Of a stretch of 64,000 nt of DNA, positions 4,532 through 59,458 are shown in pieces. How positions within the stretch are numbered: the first letter of the stretch is position 1; every line of letters starts with the position of its first letter. The stretch is from Hamadaea flava (GTDB lineage Bacteria; Actinomycetota; Actinomycetes; Mycobacteriales; Micromonosporaceae). Below the pieces are notes generated by a model. That model worked only from the letters and a program-made list of their open reading frames with translations, did not search any database and was not told the origin of the DNA. A program made the translations under genes and the position numbers. The stretch spans positions 6,696,001-6,760,000 of the forward strand of contig NZ_JAMZDZ010000001.1 in NCBI RefSeq assembly GCF_024172085.1, read 5' to 3'.

Positions 4532-6103
4532 ATGCAGGTATACGACACGACGCTGCGCGACGGCGCACAGCGTGAGGGCCTCACATACTCGGTCGCCGAC
4601 AAACTGGCGGTGGCCAAGCTGCTGGACGAGTTCGGCGTGGGCTTCATCGAGGGCGGCTGGCCCGGCGCGATGCCCAAGGACGTCGAGTTCTTCCGGCGTG
4701 CGCGCGAGGAGCTGGAGTTCCAGCACGCGATCCTGGTCGCCTTCGGGATGACCCGCAAGGCAGGCGTGCACGTCGAAGACGACGCCCTGATCAAGGGCCT
4801 GATCGACGCCCAGACTCCGGCGGTCGCCCTCGTCGCCAAGTCCGATCTCCGGCATGTGCTGCGGGCGCTGCGTACCACGCCGGAGGAGAACCTCGCGATG
4901 GTGGCCGACAGCGTCGCGTACTTCGTGGCCAACGGCCGCCGCGTCTTCCTCGACTGCGAGCACTTCTTCGACGGCTTCCGGTACGACCCCGACTACACGA
5001 CTTCCGTGGTCAAGGCCGGGCTCGACGCCGGCGCCGAGATCGCGGTCATGTGCGACACCAACGGCGGGATGCTGCCCTCCCAGGTCACCAAGGCCGTCGC
5101 CGAGGTCTGCGCCCGGCTCGGGGTGAGCCCGGACCGGCTCGGCATCCACACCCAGAACGACACCTCTTGCGCCGTGGCCAACACGGTCGCCGCGGTGGAG
5201 GCCGGCGTACGCCACTTCCAGGGCACCGCCAACGGCTACGGCGAGCGGCCCGGCAACGCCGACCTGTTCGCCTGCGTCGCCAACCTCCAGTTGAAGCTGG
5301 GCCTGCCCGTCCTACCGGACGGCTGCCTGGAACAGATGGTGCGCGTCTCGCACGCCATCGCCGAGATCGCCAACATCGCACCCGACACCCACCAGGCGTA
5401 CACGGGCAGCGCGGCTTTCGCTCACAAGGCGGGGCTGCACGCGAGCGCGATCAAGCACGACCCGGCCCTCTACAACCACATAGACCCGGCCGTGGTCGGC
5501 AACGATATGAAGATCCTGGTCACGGAGATGGCCGGCCGGGCCAGCATCGAGCTCAAGAGCAAGGAACTCGGGCTCGATCTGGCCGGGCGGCCGGACGTCG
5601 CGACCAAGGTCACGGAGGAGGTCAAGCAGCGCGAGGCGGCCGGCTGGTCCTATGAGGCCGCCGACGCCAGCTTCGAGCTGCTCGTCCGGGATGCCCTCGG
5701 CGGCGGCCCCGCCCCGTTCACCCTCGAGTCCTACCGGGTCATCGTGGAGCACCGCGAGGACGGCGCCGTCGTCTCCGAGGCCACGGTGAAGGTACGCGTG
5801 AAGGGCGAACGGGTCATCGCCACCGCCGAGGGCAACGGCCCGGTCAACGCCCTGGACGAGGCCCTGCGGCAGGCCCTGACCCGGCACTACGCGTCGCTGG
5901 CGACCCTGGAACTGGCCGATTACAAGGTCCGCATCCTGGAAGGCTCGCACGGCACGGGCGCGATCACCCGCGTCCTCGTGGAGACGGTCGACTCGCGGGG
6001 CGGCGACTGGACCACGGTCGGCGTCCACGAGAACGTCGTCGAGGCGAGCTGGCGGGCGCTCGTCGACGCGCTGACCTTCGGGCTGGTCCGCGTACCGGCT
6101 TGA
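4532..6103 (+). CDS. cimA: (R)-citramalate synthase
   Basis: A 523-residue enzyme that condenses acetyl-CoA with pyruvate to (R)-citramalate, the first step of the threonine-independent route to 2-oxobutyrate and isoleucine. The N-terminal TIM barrel opens with the catalytic YDTTLRDGAQ; the metal-binding region reads GIHTQNDTSCAVAN and is followed by QGTANGYGERPGNAD. The C-terminal LeuA-type allosteric domain (from about residue 380) is present, so feedback inhibition by isoleucine is likely from family knowledge. ATG 4532 follows a GAGAAGG ribosome site; the frame upstream to 4439 lacks homology. The length separates CimA from homocitrate or isopropylmalate synthases. It stands alone: the next start is 120 bp away. 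Confidence 0.9.
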   Translation: MQVYDTTLRDGAQREGLTYSVADKLAVAKLLDEFGVGFIEGGWPGAMPKDVEFFRRAREELEFQHAILVAFGMTRKAGVHVEDDALIKGLIDAQTPAVALVAKSDLRHVLRALRTTPEENLAMVADSVAYFVANGRRVFLDCEHFFDGFRYDPDYTTSVVKAGLDAGAEIAVMCDTNGGMLPSQVTKAVAEVCARLGVSPDRLGIHTQNDTSCAVANTVAAVEAGVRHFQGTANGYGERPGNADLFACVANLQLKLGLPVLPDGCLEQMVRVSHAIAEIANIAPDTHQAYTGSAAFAHKAGLHASAIKHDPALYNHIDPAVVGNDMKILVTEMAGRASIELKSKELGLDLAGRPDVATKVTEEVKQREAAGWSYEAADASFELLVRDALGGGPAPFTLESYRVIVEHREDGAVVSEATVKVRVKGERVIATAEGNGPVNALDEALRQALTRHYASLATLELADYKVRILEGSHGTGAITRVLVETVDSRGGDWTTVGVHENVVEASWRALVDALTFGLVRVPA

Positions 6104-6223
6104 TCCGCGTACCGGCGTGAGCAGTTCGGACTCCGATGGAGCCGAGTGGTGGAGCGAACCGGGGGCGGCGAGCGTCTATCGTGACGTGCAGTCCCCGGTC
6201 CGCCCGGAATCATCGGAGTCGCC

Positions 6224-6637
6224 ATGACGCAGCCACCACCGGAACCGCCGATCCGGCCTGAGTTCCGCGTGCCGCCGATGCGCCCGGTTCAGGCGCCGCC
6301 CGCGCTCGACGATCCGGCCGCCCGCAGGCGCCGGATGCGGCTCGGCATCATCGGCGCGGTCGTCGGCATCGGCATTCCGCTGCTCATCGTGGCCGTGGGC
6401 ATCGTCATCGCGCTGAGCGCCTCGGGCACCGGGTCGGAGCGCTGGATCGGTCTGATGTTCGTGATGGCGGCCGGGCTGGTGCTCGTCGGGCCGGTCCAGA
6501 TCGTCACCGGGATCGTGCTGACGGCGGTGCCGAACACCCGCCCGTTCGGGGTCGGCTTCCTGATCGGCTCGGCCATCGGTGTGATGGTCATGGCAGGCGC
6601 GTGCTTCGGCCCGATGCTGGGCAGCTCGTCGTTCTGA
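6224..6637 (+). CDS. Small proline-rich-headed membrane protein, first gene of the Lgt/Tes-like unit
   Basis: A 137-residue protein I do not recognise. A proline-rich cytoplasmic head (residues 1-30) is followed by a basic stretch RRRRMRLG and three predicted membrane helices: about 38-62 (IIGAVVGIGIPLLIVAVGIV), 75-97 and 105-130. Its TGA overlaps the ATG of the Lgt-like gene (TGATG), so the two are translationally coupled, which ties it to the lipid-related operon. TATCGT at 6177-6182 may be the promoter -10. No catalytic motif is visible. It could be a membrane partner of the Lgt-like protein, or an unrelated envelope protein; the coupling is the only functional clue. Confidence 0.7.
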   Translation: MTQPPPEPPIRPEFRVPPMRPVQAPPALDDPAARRRRMRLGIIGAVVGIGIPLLIVAVGIVIALSASGTGSERWIGLMFVMAAGLVLVGPVQIVTGIVLTAVPNTRPFGVGFLIGSAIGVMVMAGACFGPMLGSSSF

Positions 6638-7437
6638 TGCTGCGGCCGATTCTGTTCCACCTCGGGCCGTTCGGCGTGCCGACCCACGACTTCTTCGTCG
6701 GGCTCGGCGTGACGGCCGCCCTCAGCTGGTTCCTGTGGCAGTTGCGCGGGCGTGACCCGATCGACGAGCGGATCTGGGGCGTCATCGCCGGGGCGCTCGC
6801 GGGCGGGGCGCTGCTGTCCCGCCTCGGCACCTGGGCCCAGCACCTGGCGCCCAGCGCCAACGCCGGCCTGGCCGAGCAGTGGCTCTACGGCAGCCGGAGC
6901 ATCCTGTCCGGACTCGTCGGGGCGTACGCCGGAGCGCTGATCGCCAAGCGGGTCACCAAGCTGAAGGTGAGCACCGGCGACCTGTTCGCCGCCCCGGTCG
7001 CGCTGGCCATGGCGATCGGCCGGATCGGCTGCCTGCTCACCGAACTCCCCGGTACGCCGACCGGCGGATCCTGGGGCGTGACGCTGTCCGCCGCCGAGGC
7101 CGCGGCCATCCCGCGCGCGGTCGCCGGAGTGCCGTTGCATCCGTCGTTCGCGTACGAGATCGTCTTCCAGCTCGCCGCCTTCGTCGTGCTCCTGCGCAGC
7201 CGCGAGCGGTTCGCCCAGCCCGGCGCGCTGTTCGCCGGCTACCTGCTCGCGTACGCCGTCTTCCGGTTCCTCGTGGAGTTCGTCCGCGGCAACGAGGTCG
7301 TCGCGCTGGGCCTGACCCGGCCGCAATGGTTCCTGCTGGCCTGCTCGCCGCTCGCCGTCTGGGCCGCCGTACGCCGAGTCCGCCGCGGCGGCTTCGCCCT
7401 CGCTCCCCGTGCCCTCCAGGATGGAGTCTCAGCATGA
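6637..7437 (+). CDS. Lgt-family (prolipoprotein diacylglyceryl transferase-like) integral membrane protein
   Basis: A 266-residue polytopic membrane protein of the Lgt fold. Matching landmarks are MAIGRIGCLLTE (126-137, equivalent to the Lgt signature GR(I/L)GNFINGE), HPSFAYE (168-174), and the C-terminal FRFLVEFVRGNE (209-220) holding the two conserved arginines. Canonical Lgt moves diacylglycerol from phosphatidylglycerol to the lipobox Cys of prolipoproteins. Here the segment equivalent to E. coli SFHGGLIG reads SILSGLVG (88-95), so the essential His is Leu 90, and the signature Asn is Cys 132. Canonical lipoprotein transfer is therefore doubtful, and a different lipid substrate is more likely (inference). 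ATG 6637 overlaps the upstream stop; the gene overlaps the radical SAM start by 4 bp. No second lgt is in the window, so a housekeeping copy should exist elsewhere. Confidence 0.8.
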   Translation: MLRPILFHLGPFGVPTHDFFVGLGVTAALSWFLWQLRGRDPIDERIWGVIAGALAGGALLSRLGTWAQHLAPSANAGLAEQWLYGSRSILSGLVGAYAGALIAKRVTKLKVSTGDLFAAPVALAMAIGRIGCLLTELPGTPTGGSWGVTLSAAEAAAIPRAVAGVPLHPSFAYEIVFQLAAFVVLLRSRERFAQPGALFAGYLLAYAVFRFLVEFVRGNEVVALGLTRPQWFLLACSPLAVWAAVRRVRRGGFALAPRALQDGVSA

Positions 7438-8987
7438 CCGTCGGCATGTCCTTGCGGGGTGACCGGATTCACCGGTACGTCAACGCGTTCTGCCCGCACT
7501 GTCACGCGACCGATCCCGAGCTGGCCCAGGTCCGGCGGTTGTCGGGATGGCTGGCCGAACGCGACGGGCGGATCTGGCTCGAACGCGGCTGCCCGGAGCA
7601 CGGCCTGGTGCGGACGCTCTACGACGAGAACCCCGAGATCCTGAGCTACCTGGAGGAGTGGACCGCGCCGACCAAGGCGCACGTGCCCGATCTGGCGGGG
7701 AACTTCGCGCCGGTGCCTTCGGCGTACCTGGACGGGTTGCCGGAGATGCAGACCCAGCACACCTGCATCCTGCTGGCCGATCTCACCGACCACTGCAACC
7801 TCAAGTGCCCGACCTGCTTCGCCAACTCGTCGCCGCAGATCAGCGGGGTCGTCCCGCTCGCCGATGTGTTGTCGAGTGTGGACACCCGGCTGTCGCGGGA
7901 GAACGACCGCATCGACGTCCTCATGCTGTCGGGCGGGGAGCCGACCCTCTACCCCCAGCTCGAAGAGCTGCTCGCCGAACTGATCGCCCGGCCCGTCACC
8001 CGCATCCTGATCAACACCAACGGAGTGAAGATCGCCCGCGAGCCGGAGCTGGTCGCGCTCCTGAAGAAACACCGCGAGCGCGTCGAGGTCTACCTGCAGT
8101 ACGACGGCCCGTCGGCGGCCACCAGCCGGCACCATCGAGGCGCCGACCTCACCCGGCTCAAGGAACAGGCGATCGACGCGCTGTCGGCGGCCGGCATCTT
8201 CACCACCCTGACCATGACCTGCGCCCTCGGCGTGAACGACGACGAGATCGGCGCGGTCGTCAAACGCGCCCTCGACACTCCATACATCGGCGGGGTCTCC
8301 ATCCAGCCCCAGTTCGGTTCCGGCCGCTCGGCGCCGATCGACTCACAGGACCGGTTGACGCACACCGGCGTACTCGCAAGATTGGAGCCGCAGACCGGCG
8401 GAATCGTCACGTGGCGCGATCTGACCGCACTGCCTTGCTCGCACCCGCATTGCTGTTCCGTCGGGTACCTGCTGAAGGACGATTCGAACGAGTGGCGGTC
8501 GTTGACCGCGCTGATCGGCCATGAGCGGCTGAAGGCGTTCCTGGAACTGTCGCCCGACCTCGTGGCGAACCGCATCGCGGACACCGAGCTGCCTGCGGTC
8601 ATGCGGGGCGTGGTCAAGCAGTCGTTGCTGGACCTGCTCTCGGAGCAGTCGTCGCTGTCCCACCCGCGTGTCGGCGACCTGTGGAAGGACATCTGCGAGA
8701 ACTGCGACCTGGGCATCTCGACACTGCTCACGCTGGCCTCGTCGGCGCTGCCCGGCGGCCGGGACCGGCTCCGCAAGCTGCTGGCCGAACGGGTCAAGCG
8801 GATCACGATCAAGCCGTTCATGGACATCAACACGATGATCGAGGAACGGCTCACACAGTGCTGCGTCCACGTCGCCACTCGCTCGTCGGCCGGCGCCGAT
8901 CAGTGCGCGCCGTTCTGCGCGGTCCAAGCCTGGCCTGCGCTGTCGGCACAGCGGCTGCCCCGCGCGATGCTGCCGGTGATCTCGTGA
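7434..8987 (+). CDS. Tes-like multi-cluster radical SAM enzyme (COG1964/MJ0619 type)
   Basis: A 517-residue iron-sulfur enzyme. Residues 20-56 form a rubredoxin-like knuckle pair (CPHC at 20-23, CPEH at 53-56). The radical SAM motif CNLKCPTC is at 121-128, and GGEP at 167-170 binds SAM. Extra cysteines at 335/340/341 (PCSHPHCC), 421/424 (CENC), 476/477 (QCCVHV) and 491/495 (QCAPFC) are placed as expected for two auxiliary [4Fe-4S] clusters. This pattern matches archaeal tetraether lipid synthase (MJ0619), which joins lipid tails by sp3 C-C coupling through three clusters and a rubredoxin-like iron. The actinobacterial clade has, to my knowledge, no assigned reaction. It overlaps the Lgt-like gene by 4 bp and the following 2-TM gene by 4 bp. 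Joining or alkylating acyl chains is inference; a pterin methylase role once proposed for MJ0619 is the alternative. Confidence 0.8.
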   Translation: MTVGMSLRGDRIHRYVNAFCPHCHATDPELAQVRRLSGWLAERDGRIWLERGCPEHGLVRTLYDENPEILSYLEEWTAPTKAHVPDLAGNFAPVPSAYLDGLPEMQTQHTCILLADLTDHCNLKCPTCFANSSPQISGVVPLADVLSSVDTRLSRENDRIDVLMLSGGEPTLYPQLEELLAELIARPVTRILINTNGVKIAREPELVALLKKHRERVEVYLQYDGPSAATSRHHRGADLTRLKEQAIDALSAAGIFTTLTMTCALGVNDDEIGAVVKRALDTPYIGGVSIQPQFGSGRSAPIDSQDRLTHTGVLARLEPQTGGIVTWRDLTALPCSHPHCCSVGYLLKDDSNEWRSLTALIGHERLKAFLELSPDLVANRIADTELPAVMRGVVKQSLLDLLSEQSSLSHPRVGDLWKDICENCDLGISTLLTLASSALPGGRDRLRKLLAERVKRITIKPFMDINTMIEERLTQCCVHVATRSSAGADQCAPFCAVQAWPALSAQRLPRAMLPVIS

Positions 8988-9229
8988 ACCAGCAGCCCTA
9001 CGACCCACTGCGACTGTGCGTGTACGCGACGATCGCGCTCCTAGGCTGGCTGCTCGGCCCGGTCGCGCTGGTGATCTTCGCCGGGATCGGGTTCGCGGGA
9101 TACTGGCGGGCGCGGCGGGCCGGGCTCACGCGATCGAAGTGCTTCCTGCGGGATACGCGGCTGGTGCTGGCGTACCTCGGTGTGCTGACGCTGGCGGGGC
9201 TCGGCGGCATCGTCTGGTGGATCCTCTAA
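8984..9229 (+). CDS. Two-helix small membrane protein, last gene of the Lgt/Tes-like unit
   Basis: An 81-residue protein starting with GTG 8984, which overlaps the radical SAM stop (GTGA). Two hydrophobic helices flank a basic loop: roughly residues 13-35 (CVYATIALLGWLLGPVALV) and 60-81 (LAYLGVLTLAGLGGIVWWIL). The loop WRARRAGLTRSKCF is strongly positive and should face the cytoplasm. No family is recognised. The 4-bp coupling suggests it is made in proportion to the Tes-like enzyme and might anchor it at the membrane (inference). No terminator hairpin is obvious before the decayed region that follows. Confidence 0.7.
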   Translation: MNQQPYDPLRLCVYATIALLGWLLGPVALVIFAGIGFAGYWRARRAGLTRSKCFLRDTRLVLAYLGVLTLAGLGGIVWWIL

Positions 9230-9253
9230 CCGTCGACCTTCGCCAGCTGACGG

Positions 9254-9485
9254 TCATGGACACGGCTCAGTGCGAGCGACGCCGTCATCGCGCCCCACCC
9301 ACTCCATCAGCTCCCAGAACGCGCTGAACGCCAGGCATACGCAGAAGGTGAGCGGGTTCAACCATCGGCTTCCCGGTAGCCGATGGTTGGGTCAGGACTT
9401 CCCGCACGAGGATCGCCGGGGCGAATCCCTGGAGGAAATGGCCGATCCGGTCGTACGGGTTGCGATCCAGTGCGGTATCACGGTG
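9254..9485 (-). pseudogene. Broken DUF2238 (YjdF-like) membrane protein gene
   Basis: Two pieces of a DUF2238 protein are readable on the minus strand in different frames. From 9485 the frame reads TALDRNPYDRIGHFLQGF then APAILVREVL, close to the family block NHYDRIGHFFQGFVPA. From about 9350 down to the TGA at 9256-9254 another frame reads LTFCVCLAFSAFWELMEWVG, the family's next helix. The frame change falls at a perfect 12-bp stem-loop (9359-9389). An in-frame stop (9488-9486) precedes the first block, so the N-terminal half is missing. The gene is dead by truncation plus frameshift. DUF2238 proteins are integral membrane proteins of unknown function. Confidence 0.6.
9359..9389. repeat. Perfect 12-bp stem-loop inside the DUF2238 remnant
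   Basis: CAACCATCGGCT (9359-9370) and AGCCGATGGTTG (9378-9389) are exact inverted repeats around a 7-nt loop TCCCGGT. There is no T-tract, so an intrinsic terminator is unlikely. It lies where the reading frame of the DUF2238 remnant changes and may be an inserted palindromic element or a scar. Confidence 0.6.
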
Positions 9486-9558
9486 TCACCCGCGCCCGGC
9501 CCACTCTGGACGGTGCGCCTTCGGTGGTCGACGCCGACCGTCGTGGTCGCGGAGACGT

Positions 9559-9708
9559 GCGTGTTGGTGGGCTTCGCTCCGCGCGAGCGTGGTGGTGAGG
9601 TTTCGCTCAGCGACGTGCGTGGTGGTGAGGTTTCGCTCAGCGACGTGCGTGGTGGTGAGGCTGCGCTCCGCGATGAGCGTGGCGGTGAGGGTTGGCGTCG
9701 CAACGAGC
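9559..9708. repeat. Five 30-bp tandem repeats
   Basis: Units begin at 9559, 9589, 9619, 9649 and 9679. The second and third are identical (GTGGTGGTGAGGTTTCGCTC followed by AGCGACGTGC); the others diverge at several positions. The period is a multiple of three, so all frames stay open through the array, but none has homology. There are no spacers, so this is a minisatellite and not a CRISPR. It sits between the two gene remnants of this island. Confidence 0.8.
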
Positions 9709-56612: not shown

Positions 56613-59458
56613 AGCACGGGTTTGGTGTCCGCCAGCAGTCGGTCGATCTCCTCGATGACGGCGATCCGGCTGCCCAGCTCCATGTCGATCAGTGGCCGGC
56701 CGCGCCGGTCGAGCGCACCCCACTTGCCCTGCGGGCTGGCCACCAGGAACGCCACGGGGTGAATCACCAGCGCCGGGTGCACCGGCGGGACGACCATCTT
56801 GCCGGACTTGTCGACCACGCCCTTGCGCCCGCCGTTGTCGACGATGGCCAGGCCCTCGTCGGTGAAACCGTCGACGTAACGGCCGTCGGTCAGCGCGGTG
56901 GCGAACGCCGCGAACTGCGTCGGCACCACGACCTTGCCGGCCTTGTCGACCGCGCCCCAGCCGCCGCGGCGTACCGCGGCGACCCCACGGCGGAACGGCC
57001 GGACGTCGTCGAAGCCGCCCGGGATCACGACGCGGTTCTTCTTGTCGATCGCGACCCAGCCACTGTGCCCGTCGCGGGACACCCAGGCCAGGCCCTCGCT
57101 GAACGAGCCGACCCCGAGCCAGCCCGCGTTCGCGTCGATCAGCCGCAGCCCGGCCTCGTCGATCAGCTCCCAGGTCTCCGACTCCGGGCGGCGTACCCAG
57201 GCGACCCCGTCGCGGAACGGCTGGACGTCGGCGAACGCCGGGGAGATCCCGGTCGTGCCGGACGGATCCACGTAACCCCAGCACTGCTTCTTGTCGTCGA
57301 ACTGCGGCACCGGCGGCTTGTGCACCCGCAGGATCTCGTCCCGCGTACGCGGATAGGGGCCCCAGCCGTTCTCGGCGACCTTGCGGAAGACGGCGTCGAG
57401 GGCGATCTCGGTCCGGGCCATCAGCTCCGGGTCCTCGACCTTGCGCAGCTCGAGCGCCTTCTCGAAGTGGTTGCAGGCCTCGATGTAGCGGCCCTGGTCG
57501 TAGCAGGACTTGCCGGCGTGCTCATGCATCGTCGCGCGCAACCGGTCGGGCAGCTCCGGCGAGTTCGCCTCGGCGAACAACTGGTCGGCGTCGGCGAAGT
57601 CGCCCCGCCACTGCAACACGTGCGCCAACCGGGCCTGCGCGATCGCGATCCGGCGCAACTGACCGGTCGCCTCGGCGTGCATCAGCGCCATCTTGGCGTC
57701 CGACAGCGCCTTGCTCAGGTCGCCGAGAATTCGGGAGACCACGGCGCGCAGGCTCAGCAGCCGCGCGCGTACGGCGTTGTCGGTCGCCGGGGTGAGCTTG
57801 GTGGTCAGCCGATCCCGGATCTCCCGCAGCAGATCCGGATCGTCGACGAGCTCGCGCAGCGTGTCGTGGTGGAACCGCCACTCGACGGCGGCCAGCTCCT
57901 GCTCCGGGTCCGGCGTCTTCTCGTCGGCCGCCGGTTCCTCAGCCGCCTCGGGCTCGTCGCTCGCCTCCCCGACCGGCTTCGGCTCGACCTCGGTCGCCTG
58001 CTCCTCGGCCGCCGTGACGTCGGCCAGCGTCTTCGGGCGTACCAGGGGATGCAACATCGTGGGCGCGGACAGCGCGGGAGCCGCGCCGCTCGCGCTGGCG
58101 GCGACCGGAAGCACGGTGTCCGGCGTGGCCACGGCGGCGGGCGAGACCGGCGCGTCCGAGTGCTCCTGGTCGACCGGCGCAGGGCTCACCGGCGCAGGGC
58201 TCACCGGAACGCCGCTCGCGGGTACGGCACTGGTGGGTACGGCGCTGGTGGGCACAGCACTGGTTGGCACGGCGCTCACCGGAGCGGCGCTGACCGGGGC
58301 GGCACTGACCGGGGCCGCGCTCGCCGGAACGGCGCTCACGGGAGCCGCGCTCGACGGCGGAACGGCGCTCACTGGAGCTGCGCTCACTGGAGCCGCACTC
58401 GACGGCGGAACGGCGCTCATTGGACCGGCGCTCACTGGCGCCGCGCTTACCGGCGGAGCACTGAACGGGGCCGTTTGCGGCGCGGCTGGTGCCTGCGGTC
58501 CGGCAGCCGCCTGCGGGACGGCCGCCGAGCCGTGGGCGCCGCGGCCTTGTCCCTGCTGGCTTTGACCCTGCTGGCTTTGACCCTGCTGGCCCTGACCCTG
58601 CTGGTCGGGCTGACCCTGCGGACCGTGCTGGCCTTGCCCGTGCTGACCCTGCCCGTGCTGACCCTGCCCCGGCTGGCCTTGCTGCGGGCCGGGCTGGCCG
58701 TAGACCTGGCCGGGCGGGCCGAACTGCGGGCCGTGGCCCGGCTGGCCCTGCGGTCCCGGGCCGTGCTGTCCCGGCTGGCCCTGTCCAGGGTGGCCTTGCC
58801 CGGGCTGGCCGTGTCCTGGCTGCCCGTGCTGACCCTGCCCCGGCTGGCCTTGCTGCGGGCCGGGCTGGCCGTAGACCTGGCCGGGCGGGCCGAACTGCTG
58901 GCCCTGCGGCTGACCGTGCGGCGGCTGCGGGTGCCCCGGCTGGCCGTACCCCGGCTGGCCCTGCTGACCGTGTCCCTGCTGTCCCGGCTGTCCCGGCTGG
59001 CCGGGCTGGCCCTGCGGACCGTGCTGGCCCTGCTGCGGGCCGGGCTGGCCGTAGACCTGGCCGGGCGGGCCGTACTGCGGCTGACCGTGCGGTGCCTGCG
59101 GACCGCCCGGGTACTGCCCCGGGGGGAACTGGCCGGGCGGCGGACCGTAGCCGGGCTGCGCGTAACCCGCGCCCGGGTGCTGCGGCTGACCAGGGTGCTG
59201 TGGCTGGCCGGGGTGCTGCTGGTGGCCGTTGGGGCCCGGCGGCAGCGGCTGGCCGTTCGGCCCGAACTGCGGCTGCGCCATGCCGGTCGCACGGGGCGGG
59301 AACGGCCCCGGCGGCGTGGCTTGGCCGTGCTGCTGCGGATCGGGGTTGTCGTCGGCGGGCTGGCGCTGAGCAGGCACCTTCGACCACGGCGAGGTCGGCG
59401 TGCCAGCCCAAGCTGGGACGTCCGACCCGGGCCGGCCGCTGGTGCGCTCGATGGTCAC
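56609..59458 (-). CDS. WG-repeat protein with TPR-like middle and long low-complexity N-terminus
   Basis: A 949-residue protein in three parts. Residues 1-300 are Gly/Gln/Pro-rich, with [15 protein letters not shown] occurring three times. Residues 300-440 are Ala/Pro/Val/Ser repeats ([10 protein letters not shown] units). Residues 500-680 form an alpha-helical, TPR-like region ([40 protein letters not shown]). Residues 710-949 carry WG-type repeats ([64 protein letters not shown]). No signal peptide. GTG 59458 is the start. Likely a scaffold or interaction protein; divergent from the ABC-2 exporter genes. Confidence 0.82.
58180..58460. repeat. Degenerate 12-18 bp in-frame repeats ([10 protein letters not shown] coding)
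   Basis: Repeating units of 12, 15 and 18 bp such as GCGCTCACTGGAGC and GGCACGGCGCTGG-like words encode Ser-Ala-Val-Pro and Ser-Ala-Ala-Pro-Val repeats of the WG protein. A second, Gly/Gln-coding repeat field covers about 58560-59170. Lengths are probably variable between strains. Confidence 0.7.

Follow-up and report, generated by a model that had tools for sequence, protein, structure and literature searches.

A conserved actinobacterial module of a Lgt paralog, a Tes/TrsS-like radical SAM protein and a C-terminally tagged membrane protein: a possible protein-lipidation system

Organization of the locus

The locus considered here lies on contig NZ_JAMZDZ010000001.1 of Hamadaea flava, whose genome of 8.86 Mb is a single contig, and consists of four open reading frames (ORFs) on the + strand; coordinates are relative to the window, i.e., the whole stretch of 64,000 nt that was analyzed. 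The first gene (6224..6637, +) encodes a small membrane protein of 137 aa with three predicted helices, the proposed acceptor substrate, described through its translation, an iterative hidden Markov model (HMM), an HMM of its tail and its topology. It is followed by a paralog of Lgt (PF01790; 6637..7437, +; 266 aa), examined by Pfam, a residue table and a tree, for which the role of diacylglyceryl transferase to the cysteine of a G-x-C motif is proposed. The third gene (7434..8987, +) encodes a radical SAM (rSAM) protein of 517 aa, Tes/TrsS-like by its matches to the structure 7tol and to NCBIfam models and set in a separate clade by a tree, while the fourth (8984..9229, +; GTG start) encodes an 81-aa hairpin with two transmembrane helices (2-TM), whose invariant Cys53 falls, according to alignment and topology, in a predicted cytosolic loop. 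A first-pass annotation of this DNA had described four overlapping genes, and the ORFs were indeed found with the boundaries it gave, joined on the + strand by TGATG (small membrane protein to Lgt paralog, 6635..6639), ATGA (Lgt paralog to rSAM gene, 7434..7437) and GTGA (rSAM gene to 2-TM gene, 8984..8987). Together the four genes constitute a patchily distributed, strongly conserved module, which almost certainly acts as a functional unit and which we read, at about even confidence, as a protein-lipidation system, where the Lgt paralog would attach a lipid, previously tailored by the radical SAM enzyme, to the tag cysteine of the small membrane protein.

Gene linkage and distribution of the module

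When named genomes were scanned with 11 aligned rSAM orthologs, at least 521 relatives came up; the best 80 loci among these, all actinobacterial by name and two of them (L054, L055) sharing one genome, were examined. The Lgt paralog adjoins the rSAM gene on the same strand in 80/80 loci, and because the pairing recurs in every one of them it is not due to chance. The 2-TM gene lies beside the rSAM gene, again on the same strand, in 78 of the 80. Gene order is variable, with 13 arrangements when copy numbers and missing genes are counted, among which rSAM-2TM-Lgt-GxC accounts for 23 loci, Lgt-GxC-rSAM-2TM for 14 and GxC-Lgt-rSAM-2TM for 12. Spacing is tight, 157 of 184 neighbouring gene pairs lying within 60 bases and 66 of those 157 overlapping, figures that rely on script-chosen start codons and cover the pairs in which the tagged gene does not come second. 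No other gene family was as widespread among ORFs of at least 80 aa situated no more than 6.5 kb from the rSAM gene: the 25 widest neighbour clusters reach at most 19 loci or at most nine genera, and some of the clusters are shadow frames of module genes.

A close rSAM ortholog was present in 13 of 101 related genomes, and the Lgt paralog (E <= 1e-40) in the identical 13, the remaining 88 holding neither gene; two further genomes carry distant rSAM relatives only. Conservation of the neighbouring genes in related genomes was one of the checks suggested in the first-pass annotation, and both counts, over loci and over genomes, bear it out. In a species of the same genus (G001) the gene flanking the module, which we take to be CimA-like, is present, and the module is absent both there and elsewhere in the genome. 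Three deeper actinobacterial members (L158, L159, L160) also possess the Lgt paralog and the 2-TM gene.

The Lgt paralog

The Hamadaea paralog matches the Pfam LGT family with 98 bits (cut-off 24.9) and scores too low for each of the six NCBIfam Lgt models that it matched, the best two with 67.7/334 and 64.8/118.9 bits. In E. coli Lgt the residues R143, E151, Y235, R239, E243 and R246 are required and form part of a network buried around the donor lipid; function also depends on Y26 and H103 (PMC4728403). All of the first six are retained by the paralog in 79/79 aligned rows, which speaks for the use of a diacylglyceryl donor. Other positions are replaced: Y26 by an invariant His, H103 by Leu, N146 by an invariant Cys and N149 mostly by Thr. 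A GRIGC signature (7018..7032, +) holds both R129, equivalent to E. coli R143, and the invariant C132, equivalent to N146. A second, canonical-looking and better-scoring Lgt is encoded elsewhere in the genome, and in the tree 22 actinobacterial paralogs and an Lgt-like protein of Persicobacter form a group that is separated from five canonical Lgts (support 97/100).

The tagged small membrane protein

Nearly all members of the small membrane protein family share a layout in which the last helix is followed by G-x-C and a short C-terminal tail. The G-A-C codons of the Hamadaea tag lie at 6596..6604 (+), encoding Cys127 ten residues ahead of the C-terminus. The first-pass annotation gave no explanation for this small membrane protein, and missed the conserved tag and the acceptor-like look that comes with it. 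Detection across the 80 loci depended on the method, from 12 loci with plain tblastn to 59 (77 copies) with an iterative HMM and 77 with an HMM confined to the 45 C-terminal residues (tail HMM) and built on the 72 Cys-bearing copies of those 77 copies; the tail match is on the module strand in 76 loci and on the opposite strand in L048. Applied to a wider set of 97 sequences, in which some genomes appear twice, the tail HMM gave 108 matches in 89 sequences, with a G-x-C ending in 107/108 and a tail of 5-23 residues past the tag cysteine (6-12 in 97/107). Invariant positions in the 55-row tail alignment are the Gly at -2, the Cys and one upstream Gly.

A looser six-frame pattern was also run on the 80 loci, made of K/R, an uncharged hydrophobic stretch and a Cys 3-14 residues before the stop, with no Gly required. 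It found 86 ORFs on the module strand and one on the opposite strand near the module, and a single ORF in the outer parts of the loci, whose base count is roughly equal. Gly at -2 was present in 86/86 of the module-strand ORFs, although the pattern does not ask for it. Since the pattern was devised after the family had been seen, only the Gly and the enrichment count as independent observations.

Three helices were predicted in 68/72 tagged copies and two in the other four. Summed over the 72 copies, the 16-residue segment leading into the last helix holds 173 K/R, against 4 in the tails past the Cys, and the former exceed the latter in each copy (72/72), which places the tag, by prediction, on the outer face. 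Having basic residues, a helix and Gly-x-Cys on the outer face, the tagged protein looks like a lipoprotein signal peptide transposed to the C-terminus, and from these sequence patterns the tag cysteine is probably the acceptor that the Lgt paralog lipidates. A genome-wide sorting signal was considered and rejected, because the Hamadaea genome holds one tag copy only, the next match having an E of 0.19. The tagged proteins (P0001 and twelve others) stayed below the cut-off of every Pfam and NCBIfam model, and no family was found above cut-off for the small membrane and 2-TM proteins of Hamadaea.

The 2-TM protein

The 2-TM protein is a hairpin whose loop is predicted inside in 78/78 cases. The loop cysteine is invariant (79/79 rows), as is the tag cysteine in its alignment (55/55 rows), a coincidence that would suit a structural or redox membrane complex in which both cysteines serve as metal ligands or engage in disulfides and carry no lipid. 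Such a complex leaves unexplained why the Lgt donor-site residues are kept in 79/79 paralog rows and why Gly stands at -2; moreover, the tag is present in two Mycobacterium plasmid stretches and one Persicobacter stretch where no 2-TM protein was found. We regard it as improbable.

The radical SAM protein

The rSAM protein aligns with the Tes structure of M. jannaschii (7tol) over residues 18-497 (E 1.6e-33). Its best NCBIfam match is TrsS (NF045646; residues 19-497, 193.7 bits, cut-off 490), for which no published function was found in the literature, and Tes (NF045702) is matched with 158.5 bits (cut-off 450). Above cut-off it carries only the general Radical_SAM and zinc-ribbon Pfam domains, and among 25 of its 49 NCBIfam matches none, peptide maturases included, was at cut-off.

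This last result bears on whether the module might be akin to those of ribosomally synthesized and post-translationally modified peptides (RiPPs), with the rSAM enzyme acting on the small protein itself, through a thioether, a C-C link or the release of its short tail peptide, and with the Lgt paralog as a helper or as the enzyme that adds a lipid later. In favour of this, the radical SAM gene is accompanied by a small protein that has a conserved C-terminal motif and comes in one or two divergent copies, and tail sequences are conserved inside clades, e.g., CTGLNPxxY. Besides the lack of a maturase model at cut-off among those matches, the tag is predicted outside the cell and the rSAM enzyme is expected in the cytosol, and a RiPP-like module appears rather unlikely.

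The cysteine layout reported in the first-pass annotation (CPHC/CPEH, CNLKCPTC and three later groups) was recovered and proved nearly invariant, being conserved in 81/81 aligned sequences except for C341 (80) and C421 (79). It comprises CPHC (C20, C23), CPEH (C53, H56), the CX3CX2C radical SAM cluster site CNLKCPTC (C121/C125/C128; 7794..7817, +), the PCSHPHCC region (C335-C341; 8436..8456, +), which has no counterpart in the aligned stretch of MJ0619, the pair C421/C424 and CC...C..C (C476, C477, C491, C495), read as CCVH...QCAPFC (8859..8918, +) and partially matching the C-terminal region of MJ0619. The rubredoxin-like CX2C...CX2H ligands C20, C23, C53 and H56 are kept in 81/81 rows. Ligand assignments for MJ0619 were taken from PMC9433317, where the M439A variant is described as still active. 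The stretch aligned with its N-terminal [Fe4S4] ligands C73/C77/C80 has no Cys at all, and the position of Met439, a labile residue on the C-terminal cluster, is Lys460 in 81/81 rSAM sequences.

A tree of 41 rSAM proteins, which includes MJ0619 in part only and otherwise represents archaea by haloarchaeal relatives of unknown function, united the 23 Lgt-paired actinobacterial members in one clade (100/100) with a stem of 3.62 changes per column, and this clade groups with no family of known reaction. Membership in the Tes family was rejected on the sub-threshold score (158.5 of 450 bits), the missing N-terminal cluster cysteines, the change of Met439 to Lys460 and this separate clade. A known defence system was likewise rejected, since in PADLOC the rSAM protein alone matches two viperin models (36.7 and 23.9 bits), through residues 117-203.

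The same data weigh on the idea of a bulk-lipid pathway, where the rSAM enzyme would act as a bacterial Tes, making membrane-spanning or macrocyclic lipids by joining acyl tails, and the Lgt paralog and small proteins would be lipid handlers or a scaffold. The near full-length similarity to MJ0619, the shared rubredoxin-like site and the C-terminal Cys pair agree with it, and lipids of this kind have been suggested as products of bacterial Tes homologues (PMC8941075). However, the arguments that removed the protein from the Tes family, together with the length of the clade's stem, count against this pathway, which also leaves the tagged proteins and the exact co-occurrence with the Lgt paralog unexplained; we hold it to be quite unlikely. 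Of the lipid or lipoprotein pathway put forward in the first-pass annotation, the general direction stands, as the conserved unit points to lipids or lipoproteins, with "modifying lipoproteins" closer to our reading than bulk membrane-spanning lipids. Archaeal Tes binds phospholipids and activates their tails, as stated in PMC9433317, and from its relation to that enzyme the rSAM protein would be expected to change the lipid before transfer. By this analogy its substrate may be a lipid, a suggestion that we make with somewhat less than even confidence.

Plasmid-borne copies and genomic surroundings

The pairing is not restricted to actinobacteria. On a plasmid of Persicobacter psychrovividus (Bacteroidota) a gene of the LGT family (84.9 bits) overlaps a radical SAM gene, whose product has 32% identity to the Hamadaea rSAM protein over 68% of the length and retains the N-terminal cluster cysteines. 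In tblastn the Persicobacter paralog hit three paralogs of the plasmid collection with E of 2e-22, 9e-22 and 9e-19, the Lgts of 13 other records reaching 3e-7 to 8e-6. Directly after the rSAM gene, with an ATGA stop overlap, lies a gene for a 59-aa membrane protein with GICGSLLS as its C-terminus, which was located by reading and not by the HMM and has a sub-threshold match to DUF4190 (15.1 of 35 bits). Persicobacter stands on a long branch in both the rSAM and the Lgt trees, and its position there is approximate.

In plasmids of Mycobacterium avium (pS2b; L170, NZ_CP076860.1) and M. branderi (L171, NZ_AP022607.1) the rSAM and Lgt genes flank those of two tagged proteins, so that the module can move between lineages. 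No 2-TM gene was found in the stretches read of these two plasmids and of the Persicobacter plasmid. Tes/TrsS-like rSAM genes followed by a methyltransferase gene were seen on three haloarchaeal plasmids and one plasmid of Mycolicibacterium vanbaalenii (L172, L173, L175, L176), the latter with CcdA and a disulfide oxidoreductase gene also nearby.

Tagged proteins and their relatives occur outside the usual arrangement too. In two genomes, G010 and G029 (L192:5168-6055 and L193:5771-6133), a tagged protein directly follows the presumed CimA-like gene, with neither rSAM nor Lgt paralog; it is either a remnant or a stand-alone relative, Hamadaea having the whole module at the same place. Four copies of the small membrane protein family that lack the cysteine are additional homologs in Nocardioides (L065:10012-10797, L070:9955-10737, L093:5207-5677, L111:9941-10648).

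As for the surroundings in Hamadaea, Rfam and tRNA scans of the window and a promoter and terminator scan of positions 6050-9500 gave no matches. A tandem array of 30-base units (4.6 copies) lies shortly downstream of the module, at window positions 9554-9690, and dense nested tandem repeats (15-, 48- and 171-base units among others), as in a low-complexity repetitive protein, occupy 58269-59081.

Proposed mechanism and its significance

In the protein-lipidation reading, the small membrane protein would be the acceptor, its last helix running from inside to outside before G-x-C and the short tail. The rSAM enzyme, at the cytosolic face, would first tailor the lipid, activating an sp3 carbon in one of its acyl tails, with the 2-TM hairpin helping, via its cytosolic cysteine loop, to dock or feed the enzyme. 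The Lgt paralog, whose active site would be at the outer face as in its fold family, would then transfer the diacylglyceryl group from phosphatidylglycerol to the thiol of the tag cysteine. The tag-lipidation half of this scheme is better supported than the rSAM half, whose step is weak: we infer that the tag cysteine is lipidated, and only weakly that the rSAM substrate is a lipid and that the hairpin has the role given here. More tentatively still, the rSAM enzyme might remake a phospholipid, e.g., by joining its tails, and the dedicated Lgt paralog might attach the product to a C-terminally placed cysteine of a multi-pass membrane protein, which would amount to a lipoprotein with its order reversed, the tail of 5-23 residues perhaps being released as a lipopeptide.

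Several observations pull against the lipidation of the tag by this module. The tail HMM found no tag in 8/97 sequences (the three Microbacterium loci L063, L082 and L083, together with L158, L159, L160, L174 and L029), nor in one of the 13 module genomes (G064). By reading, these HMM-negative sequences yielded GAC in L160 and GIC in L174, only VAC in L029, and no tag in L158 and L159. Of the 77 family copies, five have no Cys in the last 25 residues, namely the Nocardioides homologs above and an overlapping ORF in L038, which may be a shadow frame. Tail matches were also obtained in three of the 88 module-free genomes (G010, G029, G085), that of G085 being weak and away from the ORF end. None of the 107 GxC tags fits the classical lipobox, which we take to be [LVI][ASTVI][GAS]C. 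Covariation between Lgt motifs and tail types was rejected as proof of contact, as it is inseparable from phylogeny.

Further points concern the enzymes. H103 is absent also from the other Lgt of the Hamadaea genome, for which reason the claim that its loss proves a new acceptor was rejected. A simple helix finder did poorly on the paralogs, giving between 1 and 6 helices and a mixed orientation (54 N-out, 26 N-in), and E. coli Lgt is therefore the sole basis for placing the active site at the outer face. The two partners would also lie on opposite sides of the membrane, the rSAM enzyme presumably in the cytosol and the tag cysteine, by prediction, outside. Finally, most of the C-terminal cysteines of the Hamadaea rSAM protein are missing from its Persicobacter counterpart, and the Persicobacter paralog has Thr at E151 and Lys at R246; thus, although both lineages share the pairing, its chemistry may differ between them.

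Bacterial lipoproteins are known to be made through one pathway, which reads a lipobox ending the N-terminal signal peptide. If the proposed mechanism is true, an Lgt paralog dedicated to a C-terminal cysteine tag of its own and tied to a lipid-type rSAM enzyme would represent a second lipoprotein route, spread across actinobacteria and with its core (rSAM protein, Lgt paralog and tagged protein) also borne by two Mycobacterium plasmids and one Persicobacter plasmid. A group of bacterial Tes-like proteins would gain a testable function, the enzyme, its partner and the likely substrate being encoded side by side, and this bears on the reading of bacterial Tes homologues as signs of membrane-spanning lipids.

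Comparison with known systems

Searches of the titles and abstract openings of open-licence papers returned no description of this module. The combination of its parts is new, each enzyme superfamily being already known and the mechanism a proposed one. With Tes (GDGT-MAS, MJ0619, NF045702) the module rSAM protein has in common the rubredoxin-like CxxC...CxxH, the CX3CX2C core, the region of the C-terminal Cys pair and a near full-length homology. It differs in having no N-terminal cluster cysteines, in Lys460 for Met439, in the extra PCSHPHCC and in its separate clade, and TrsS, a radical SAM (seleno)protein, is the family that it matches best in NCBIfam. The four related plasmid records mentioned above have a methyltransferase after the rSAM gene, whereas here a Lgt paralog and tagged proteins accompany it. 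The paralog belongs to the Lgt fold family and keeps R143, E151, Y235, R239, E243 and R246, in contrast to its changed Y26, N146, N149 and H103 and its scores below the NCBIfam cut-offs.

The nearest likeness to the tag itself is MYXO-CTERM of the myxosortase sorting system, whose cysteine is believed to receive its lipid from an Lgt-like enzyme (PMC11980579). Both tags are C-terminal and hold an invariant cysteine, but their order is reversed: in MYXO-CTERM the Cys is followed by a helix and then by basic residues, while in the module described here basic residues precede the helix and the Cys comes last. Unlike MYXO-CTERM, moreover, this tag is linked to a Lgt paralog and an rSAM gene.

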